38,629 nt of DNA from Chloroflexota bacterium (GTDB taxonomy: Bacteria; Chloroflexota; Limnocylindria; P2-11E): the NCBI GenBank assembly GCA_005887995.1, contig VBJD01000032.1, forward strand, positions 1-38,629, read 5' to 3'. The stretch's first letter is position 1; the number at the start of each line of letters is the position of its first letter. The position numbers and the translations under genes were made by a program. This document shows positions 36,727 to 38,629 of this stretch, in pieces. The notes beneath the pieces were generated by a model. It saw only the letters and a list, made by a program, of their open reading frames with translations, was not told the origin of the DNA and made no database searches.

Positions 36727-36984
36727 CTAAACCTGCGGGACGACGGAAACCTTCCGTCGGTCATCGCGCGCCGGACCGTACTTCACCTCGCCCGCGACGA
36801 GCGCGAAGAGCGTGTGGTCCTTGCCGACGCCGACGTTCTGACCGGGGAGGACCCTGGTGCCGCGCTGGCGGACGAGCACCGTCCCGGCTTCGACAAGCGA
36901 GCCGGCGTACTCCTTCACGCCGAGACGCTGCCCGGCGGAATCGCGACCGTTGCGGGTCGAGCCCGCGCCTTTCTTGTGTGCCAT
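36727..36984 (-). CDS. rpmA: 50S ribosomal protein L27
   Basis: An 85-residue L27. Begins [24 protein letters not shown], then [10 protein letters not shown]-type region [27 protein letters not shown] and ends VSVVPQV. The N-terminal MAHKKGAGS places the tail near the peptidyl-transferase centre; no cleavable prosequence as in Firmicutes. ATG 36984 overlaps the rplU stop (TAATG). Confidence 0.97.
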
Positions 36985-37301
36985 TAGTGAAGCCCCTCGA
37001 TCTTCAGGATCTTGATGGTCGTCTCGTCCTGGCGGTGACCCCGCGTCTTGCGCTGGCGCGTCTTGTTCTTGTAGCGCAGCACGTCGATCTTCGGACCCTT
37101 TGTGTGTCCGATGATCTCCGCCGTGATCCGCGCGCCCTTGAGTGCCGCCGGGCCCGCCTTGATGGCCTCGTTGTCCGCAACGAAGAGGATGTCCGACAAC
37201 GTCACCTTGTCGCCCGCCTGCCCGGCGAGCTTGGCGACGGTCAGCTGCGTGCCCTCTTCGACGCGGTACTGCTTGCCGCCGCTGCGGACGACTGCGTACA
37301 C
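36984..37301 (-). CDS. rplU: 50S ribosomal protein L21
   Basis: A 105-residue L21. [22 protein letters not shown] opens the protein; [20 protein letters not shown] and [27 protein letters not shown] are standard for the family. Start GTG 37301 with AGGAAG upstream. First gene of the ribosomal operon running through prfA. A hairpin and U-tract lie in its leader. Confidence 0.97.
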
Positions 37302-37320
37302 GGAACGACCTGCTTCCTGA

Positions 37321-37351
37321 CAAAAAGAATCGCCGCACCGCCCGTGCGACG
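37321..37351 (-). terminator. Terminator-like hairpin with U-tract in the rplU leader
   Basis: On the minus strand CGTCGCAC (37351-37344) pairs with GTGCGGCG (37338-37331; one G-U) around a five-base loop. ATT-C-TTTTT-G follows. It lies between a TATACT -10 and the rplU start, so it would be transcribed first in the operon. Attenuator of the L21 operon is the likely role. Confidence 0.55.
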
Positions 37352-37358
37352 TAGCAAC

Positions 37359-37366
37359 AGTATAGA
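37359..37366. promoter_or_regulatory. Candidate overlapping divergent -10 elements between rplU and binding protein
   Basis: Minus strand TATACT (37364-37359) for rplU, near the consensus; plus strand TATAGA (37361-37366), 4 nt before ATG 37371. No good -35 recognised. Confidence 0.4.
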
Positions 37367-37370
37367 GCGG

Positions 37371-38629
37371 ATGGGTAGCCGGCTCCCCTCTTTCGTGATC
37401 GCACTGGTCATCAGCGCGTGCGCCGGTGGCCCGATCACGCCGGTCGCGACGCCGGCAGATGGCGGCACCGCGCTGGTCGCGTGGCAGGAACCGGCGACCC
37501 TCGACCTCCTGTACGCGCCGGGCGTGCAGTCCGCGGCGACGATCGCGCGAGTCGCGGTCGAAGGTCTGCTGAGGGTGGGGCCGGACGGCGCGGAGATTCC
37601 CGCCCTCGCGCGCGAGGTGCCCACGCTCGCCAACGGCGGCATCGCGCTCGCGGGTGGCGGCATGACCGTGCGTTACCGCCTGCGGGAGGGCGTGAGGTGG
37701 TCTGACGGCGCGCCGCTCACGAGCGCGGACGTGCGCTTCACGTGGCAGTCCATCGTCGGCGACCCGAAGGTCTCGAGCCGTGACGGCTACGACCGCATCG
37801 CCGACGTCGAGACGCCCGACGATCTCACGGCGGTCGTCCACTACGCATCGCTGGACGCCGCGTACACGATGCGCTTCGACGTCGTCCTGCCGAGACACCT
37901 GCTCGAGGGCGCGTCCGACGCCGTGCGTGTCGCGTACGGCCGGTCGCCGCTCGGGACGGGGCCGTTCCGCATCACCGAGTTCGCGGCCGGAGATCACGTC
38001 ACGGCGGAGCGGAATCCGCTGGCGCGCGTTCGTCCGCATCTCGATCGCGTGATCTTCCGCTTCACGCCCTCGCTCGACGTCGCCAAGGCACAGCTCAAAG
38101 CGGGCGAAGCCGACATCGCGCCGAGCATCTTCGAGAGCGACGTCCCCGACTTTGCGCACGAGCCACAGGTCGCGATCGCGCAGGCGCCGTCGCCGGTCGT
38201 CGAGACCGTGCATTTCAACCTCGCGCGAATATCGGAGGCAGGCGCCGAAACAGGCCCGCATCCGATCCTGTCCGACCGCGCGGTGCGGCACGCGCTTCTC
38301 CTCGCGACGCCGCGGCAGCGGATCGTCGACACGCTCCTCTTCGGCCGGGCGCGCGCCGGCACGGCGGAGATCCCCATCGGCTGGGCCGCGTACGGGCTCG
38401 TGCAGGACGGGTACGACCCGGTCGCCGCGGCGCGCGAGCTCGACGGCGCGGGCTGGACGGCCGGATCGGACGGGATCCGGGCGAAGGCAGGCACGCGCAT
38501 GAGCCTGAAGCTCGTCGGCACGACGGGGAACGCGCTGCGCGAGCGCATCGAGCAGGTGCTCGTCGATGAATGGAGGGCGATCGGTGTCGAGATCCGCATC
38601 GCGAACGTGCCGTCGTCGGTGCTGACCGC
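37371..38629 (+). CDS. ABC transporter substrate-binding protein, family 5 (peptide/nickel type), clipped
   Basis: At least 419 residues, cut by the right edge. Signal [17 protein letters not shown] gives a lipoprotein with Cys17. The family signature follows: [14 protein letters not shown], then [29 protein letters not shown] (SBP_bac_5 motif), [14 protein letters not shown], and [23 protein letters not shown]. It binds oligopeptides or similar ligands for a DppBCDF-type importer whose genes must lie beyond the window. ATG 37371 is preceded by a -10-like TATAGA only 4 nt away and no Shine-Dalgarno. Confidence 0.93.

Follow-up and report, generated by a model that had tools for sequence, protein, structure and literature searches.

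In a 38,629-nucleotide contig of a Chloroflexota bacterium (the window, by which we mean the whole stretch of DNA analysed), the message for ribosomal protein L21 is predicted to begin with a short hairpin. Comparison of upstream regions indicates that this 5′-end hairpin is real and conserved in the family of the bacterium (f1), the start site being predicted. It likewise indicates that the conserved core of the element is the hairpin, mostly accompanied by a UGU triplet, with the U-run as a variable, lineage-specific part. The hairpin is probably a control signal that acts as the message starts. Our best reading, to which we assign a probability of about 0.38, is that the element would act as a promoter-proximal pause or attenuation signal.

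The rplU leader in the window

All parts of the leader lie on the minus strand. The rplU gene occupies positions 36984–37301 with a GTG start at 37301 (open reading frame list; PF00829 match of 106.9 bits), and AGGAAG, which reads as Shine-Dalgarno-like, lies at 37313–37318. The −10 element of the promoter, TATACT (37359–37364), is also present in relatives and stands without a −35 match; a sigma-70 promoter search gave no match at the window rplU leader, and −35 matches in 25 family leaders reach at most 4 of 6 positions, the −10 being mis-called in some. From spacing alone, transcription is predicted to start at the A at 37352, the seventh base past the −10. Folding and covariation place the hairpin at 37331–37351, beginning at the eighth base, where the arms CGUCGCAC and GUGCGGCG form eight pairs, including one U-G, around the five-nucleotide loop GGGCG. 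The U-rich tail AUUCUUUUUG (37321–37330) gives the element a terminator-like form. A single-stranded UGU (37320–37322), recognised as conserved from the leader alignment and from UGU counts, lies 8 nt past the stem. The initial annotation had described an 8-bp stem and a U-run between the TATACT −10 and the rplU start, and both are indeed found there, at 37321–37351.

A plus-strand gene with its ATG at 37371 is divergent from rplU, with 69 bp between the two (37301–37371). It encodes an SBP_bac_5 solute-binding protein (PF00496, 201 bits), and the rplU −10 ends 6 bp from its ATG. Six rplU promoters of the family (L006, L009, L010 and L012–L014) are without a −35 and carry instead a repeat of the approximate form GACGGCCGTC...GACGGCCGTCC. 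As judged from its letters, this repeat can form a hairpin ending near the −10, and is perhaps the terminator of the previous gene or a regulator site.

Folding of the window sequence gave mixed results. Folded in isolation, the 31-nt piece reaches −14.3 kcal/mol (z −3.78), and only 1 of 200 shuffles did equally well. The whole leader of 61–64 nt (z −0.94 and −0.09) has a minimum-energy fold other than this stem. When 40 nt of coding sequence were added, the mean predicted pair probability of the stem was 0.24 for the window and 0.64 over 25 family leaders, seven of which fell below 0.3 in equilibrium folding. Three terminator-like matches were found in 1.4 kb, against 0.8 (s.d. 1.0) in shuffles, which is weak evidence alone. 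As the match in the window barely beats chance, the case for the hairpin rests on its relatives. The window fold also suggested that the 5′ arm might alternate between the stem and pairing with the start codon; this switch was rejected, as the mean z over 25 leaders was +0.28, not above shuffles.

Conservation of the hairpin within the family

A match to rplU was found in 26 of 28 family genomes, and the hairpin in all 26. Complete upstream regions could be read for 25, and every one has ACGTC at the predicted start, on which the aligned leaders were trimmed, and a stem past the −10. The 26th leader (L122, on contig C250 of genome G010) has GCGTC with the same stem intact, but its rplU is without part of the 5′ coding stretch in the assembly. 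Stem onset is 7–8 nt past the −10 in 20 of the 25 leaders.

The initial annotation had proposed searching rplU upstream regions for covariation, and a conserved, covarying stem was found in the family. In the alignment of 25 leaders the eight pairs of the stem are formed in 99% of cells and four of them are changed on both sides (7 cells); none of 500 shuffles reached this combination of pairing and two-sided changes. Further pair types are no more numerous in the family stem than expected, 139 of 500 shuffles reaching the observed number. Control structures slid by 1–3 columns were only 12–60% paired in the same alignment. At the third pair, 20 of 24 distinct rows have U-G and three have U-A, a predominance of U-G that is more readily explained by RNA pairing than by a palindrome in the DNA.

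A covariance model built on the family recovered the rplU leader, at 29–58 bits, from each of the 26 family genomes that have the gene. In the other 149 genomes of the class, Limnocylindria, nothing scored above 28 bits under stricter filters; the model misses the sister families because the letters of the stem differ while its plan stays. Eight further model hits were considered as extra genomic copies of the motif. Their scores of 22–30 bits just touch the range of the rplU leaders. Read by eye, they were rejected as chance, since open frames run through or near most of them and none has the full tail.

Position of the stem in sister families and the phylum

Leaders were read from 149 of the 160 rplU-bearing genomes of the class. 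Genomes within a group are related, so that the counts below are not independent events. For counts of stem, tail and UGU, leaders outside the family with fewer than 5 of 6 −35 matches were dropped (the single f2 leader was kept at 4 of 6), leaving 88 of 94 in f4, 19 of 19 in f3, 10 of 10 in f5 and 42 of 60 from elsewhere in the phylum. The stem was sought only 3–13 nt from the −10, and the offset for the family was set there by construction.

The letters of the stem change from family to family while its position just past the −10 stays. Most f4 leaders begin with approximately UUCGCGCC-loop-GGCGC, f3 leaders with approximately CCGCGGGCUGA-loop-UCGGCCCG, f5 leaders with CCGCGACUGAC-loop-GUCAG and the f2 leader with CGUGGCG-loop-CGCCACG. 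By a test that is loose for GC-rich DNA, 111 of 118 sister leaders have a stem with a folding energy of −7 kcal/mol or lower. An unbiased view, compared with stem calling restricted to 3–13 nt, is given by the profile of mean fold energy in 28-nt windows. Around the −10 itself this lies at −2 to −6 kcal/mol in most groups; past the −10 it falls to a local trough of −14.7 in f1, −13.7 in f4, −13.5 in f3 and −9.5 kcal/mol in f5, with a shallower one of −8.2 kcal/mol in other Chloroflexota. Further troughs occur in f1 at 36 nt upstream (−13.3, the upstream repeat), in f4 at +45 (−10.8) and in f5 at +36, where the deeper value of −12.5 is reached. A second hairpin, in many f4 leaders of the approximate form GCGGUCG...CGACCGC, lies 40–50 nt past the −10, between the 5′ hairpin and the rplU ribosome-binding site. 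One f3 genome (G124) has two rplU-like genes, on contigs C28 and C31.

At p ≤ 0.05, the folding of a fixed window past the −10 exceeded that of its shuffles in 53 of 88 f4, 11 of 19 f3, 5 of 10 f5 and 15 of 40 other-phylum leaders, and in the f2 leader. The family gave 20 of 25, with windows anchored on ACGTC and so not independent. Control windows that began 70 nt upstream reached the same level in 6 of 88 (f4), 3 of 19 (f3), 1 of 10 (f5), 0 of 1 (f2), 1 of 25 (family) and 2 of 37 (other phylum). Stem onset is 7–8 nt past the −10 in 57 of 82 f4 and all 10 f5 leaders, and 9–10 nt in 12 of 18 f3 leaders; the spacing between −10 and start codon ranges from 52 to 116 nt in f4. As the first distance varies little in the class and the second widely, the element appears to be tied to the start of transcription, not of translation.

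Alignment of f4 leaders with MAFFT and RNAalifold yielded no common structure, because loops and registers differ, and covariation was therefore counted on stems called by folding. This procedure leans towards structure; it drew on 66 distinct leaders, with 75 of 94 anchorable. At arm positions 5–9 there were 4, 10, 21, 14 and 16 two-sided changes, against 3, 15, 8, 6 and 8 unpaired cases. These data bear on the idea that the stem is a by-product of a constraint on promoter or initially transcribed DNA, such as a palindrome or a GC-rich start, with no role as RNA. Most f4 leaders do share approximately TTCGCGCC at their start, and some rpsT leaders are alike. We nevertheless regard this explanation as very improbable: pairs are preserved by two-sided changes, G-U makes up 4–16% of called stem pairs in groups with more than one leader, U-G is the commonest third pair in the family, and folding in the upstream control windows is close to what chance would give.

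A place that is kept while letters change speaks for a 5′-terminal stabiliser. In that case the stem would leave too few free 5′ nucleotides for pyrophosphohydrolase and 5′-end-dependent RNases, and the ribosomal protein message would live longer; we consider this somewhat unlikely. If transcription begins at the predicted A, the window stem leaves one free nucleotide, and purified Bacillus subtilis RppH requires at least two unpaired 5′ nucleotides according to the available text of PMC3997798. Outside the class, however, the called stem lies 4–5 nt past the −10 in 14 of 28 leaders, which is upstream of the usual +1, and at least 10 nt past it in 7 of 28, which would leave several nucleotides free.

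The tail and the UGU triplet

Where a stem reaches −7 kcal/mol or lower, a terminator-like tail follows it in all 24 family leaders and the f2 leader, in 8 of 82 f4, 3 of 18 f3, none of 10 f5 and 13 of 28 other-phylum leaders. UGU occurs 3–10 nt past the stem in 23 of 24 family leaders (0.8 expected from the rest of the leader), in the f2 leader (0.3), and in 59 of 82 f4 (2.6), 9 of 18 f3 (0.4), 0 of 10 f5 (0.9) and 16 of 28 other-phylum leaders (2.2). It was on these counts that we assigned the triplet to the conserved core and the U-run to its variable part. The U-run is thus lineage-specific, and an attenuator would be no more than a local variant of the element. A classical attenuator requires a competing structure; with a start at 37352 the stem begins at the predicted +2 and leaves no space for one on its 5′ side. 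The suggestion of a lineage-specific, terminator-like attenuator is supported as regards a lineage-specific, conserved stem; as a general function it is not supported, since most sister-family leaders that keep a stem are without the tail.

A triplet at a set distance is left unexplained by a 5′-terminal stabiliser. It would be accounted for, together with the link to rplU, by a ribosomal protein leader in which excess L21 binds the stem and UGU and thereby represses the rplU operon, an explanation that we judge unlikely. The presence of the element before rplU in 26 of 26 rplU-bearing family genomes, the stems called by the loose test in sister leaders, and the combination of covariation with a conserved unpaired triplet all agree with it. 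Single-hairpin leaders of ribosomal protein genes exist, five of them for L31, in the available text of PMC7247131. Against it, the letters of the stem are very different from one family to the next, the element lies at widely differing distances from the start codon, and the E. coli rplU-rpmA operon is described in the accessible part of PMC10931766 as unresponsive to its products.

The leaders were also aligned on UGU. The pause consensus is G−10 Y−1 G+1, and among distinct leaders G was found at −10 in 13 of 14 from the family and in 80% of 51 from f4, Y−1 and G+1 being given by construction. In f3 the corresponding count was 0 of 9 (first UG), and outside the class 36% of 14. The NusG pause motif, TTNTTT, is read on the non-template strand at −11 to −6. 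It is absent at these positions from the family consensus aligned on UGU, which has T at −7 to −3; TTCTTT is contained in the window's own tail and is not in the family consensus.

Leaders of other ribosomal protein genes

To ask how far the element is special to rplU, we used a strict composite consisting of a −10, a perfect stem of at least six pairs 4–11 nt later, and UGU. Among rplU leaders it was found in 22 of 25 from the family, 1 of 1 from f2, 11 of 19 from f3, 41 of 94 from f4, 0 of 10 from f5 and 12 of 60 from elsewhere in the phylum, with shuffles giving 0 to 0.2. Among control leaders of the class, taken from the best 30 of 40–45 matching genomes for each gene, it was found in 3 of 30 for rpsT, 3 of 30 for rpmB, 0 of 30 for rpsB and 0 of 29 for rpsO. 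One rpsO leader was too short, and start codons were picked by rule, some of them doubtful. With UGU left out, the rplU counts became 24 (family), 1 (f2), 13 (f3), 44 (f4), 0 (f5) and 20 (other phylum), and those of the same best-30 controls 7 of 30 (rpsT), 7 of 30 (rpmB), 6 of 30 (rpsB) and 0 of 29 (rpsO), with 0.4, 0.5, 0.2 and 0.2 in the respective shuffles. The fixed-window test gave p ≤ 0.05 in 6 of 24 rpsT and 1 of 17 rpsO leaders.

A genome-contig scan of 80 loci, one of them too short, found the full composite in none of 54 rplU leaders outside Chloroflexota, with a stem lacking UGU in three. In the same scan it was present in 12 of 15 family leaders and 2 of 10 from other Chloroflexota, one of these (L459) by a stem overlapping the promoter. 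A strict TTGAC promoter scan of 562 kb of class DNA returned almost rplU alone (20 of 21 matches) and is therefore unusable as a control.

The f3 leaders that share the rplU-like plan of −10, stem and UGU are three of rpsT (L276, L277 and L284) and three of rpmB (L400, L404 and L409), which tells against a leader bound by L21. Six rpsB leaders of the family (L381, L382, L383, L385, L386 and L389) have a hairpin of their own, approximately ATCGAGC-loop-GCTCGGT followed by ACTTCGCACGC, which from its sequence is a possible S2 leader. That some rpsT, rpmB and rpsB leaders also begin with a hairpin speaks against a device private to L21, and hairpins of unrelated letters at these starts agree with a 5′-terminal stabiliser. 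A start-of-message signal might also be shared: several ribosomal protein messages (rplU throughout, rpmB, rpsT and rpsB in part) would begin with unrelated hairpins at the first transcribed bases, partly with UGU, and a general factor would set the output of ribosomal protein operons jointly, instead of one private leader for each protein. We hold this to be decidedly doubtful. A hairpin at +1 as a general feature of promoters was rejected. In one f4 genome 32 consensus promoters were found, compared with 9 matches to the reversed pattern, and 30 of the 32 were folded, of which only four had such a stem, rplU being among these and the most stable; this rarity at other genes also counts against a stabiliser.

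Possible mode of action

Given the predicted start, no competitor lies 5′ of the stem, and pairing with the start codon is not conserved; the element would then act either on transcription complexes that have only just started or on the RNA's 5′ end. The fixed spacing from stem to UG favours the former, by pausing, or by termination where there is a U-run. A device acting on ribosome binding is disfavoured because it would be tied to the other end of the leader. In the preferred reading, a promoter-proximal pause or attenuation signal, the cis-acting RNA element would consist of the ~35 nt with which the rplU message begins. The nascent hairpin would fold in the exit channel of RNA polymerase, and the pyrimidine-rich stretch ending in U-G would hold the polymerase at about +30 to +36. 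A fraction of complexes would then pause, or would stop (attenuation) if this stretch is a U-run, as it is in the family of the window, and entry into the operon starting with rplU would thereby be set or regulated. Nus factors or L21 itself may serve as a tuning factor.

Several observations weaken this reading. A distance of 6–9 nt from stem to RNA end is terminator spacing. Hairpin-stabilised pauses have about 10–13 nt from the hairpin to the RNA end in the available text of PMC12288461. The distance here is 6–9 nt, shorter than in known hairpin pauses, and the NusG motif is absent, both of which argue against a textbook pause. G−10 is poor in f3 and outside the class, and the stem is G-rich anyway; f5 stems are without UGU; UGUC is longer than the pause consensus requires; and the stem is not always kept in the full leader at equilibrium. 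A generic pause also leaves unexplained why rplU above all should carry it.

The element is short, stands at the start of the message and is kept by shape and not by letters, and is thus easily missed by sequence models. It offers a directly testable case of control within the first 40 nt of transcription.

Comparison with known RNA elements

An Rfam search of the window gave no family match. The Firmicutes L21 leader, RF00559, resembles the element in being a leader RNA before rplU with one main hairpin; it differs in that its consensus has the conserved flanks CUACAACCGC and GGCGAGUCUUAG. Nothing exceeded its gathering score in the window or in 151 genomes of the phylum, and 10 class loci gave no match at E ≤ 5. 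Three sub-threshold matches were found in the phylum, two of them on contigs other than that carrying rplU in the same genome. The element was accordingly rejected as RF00559, and the initial view that its structure is not that of the Firmicutes leader is borne out. Neither Rfam nor the portions of the literature that our search reached contained an L21 leader described for Chloroflexota.

The single-hairpin leaders of PMC7247131 (Eckert and Weinberg 2020), as far as the available text describes them, are similar in that a covarying hairpin precedes a ribosomal protein gene; in the main text so available, bL21, L27 and Chloroflex are absent, L21 was counted 0 times, and rplU occurs only in a reference. 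Intrinsic terminators and attenuators share the GC stem followed by a U-run, which is found in the window and 24 of 24 family stems. The element differs from them in that most sister-family leaders are without the U-run, few having both parts, and in that, with the predicted start, an antiterminator could not fit 5′ of the stem. Another 5′-terminal stabilising stem-loop is that of ompA. Stem-loops of the papA type, in the accessible part of PMC3997798, are alike in having a stem at the very 5′ end (predicted here); the rplU element differs in adding a conserved UGU and in occurring mostly at rplU. A conserved, covarying RNA structure consistently upstream of the gene, as is characteristic of ribosomal protein leaders, was found. 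The rplU hairpin, assigned to no named family, is on this comparative evidence a leader RNA of a ribosomal-protein operon in kind.
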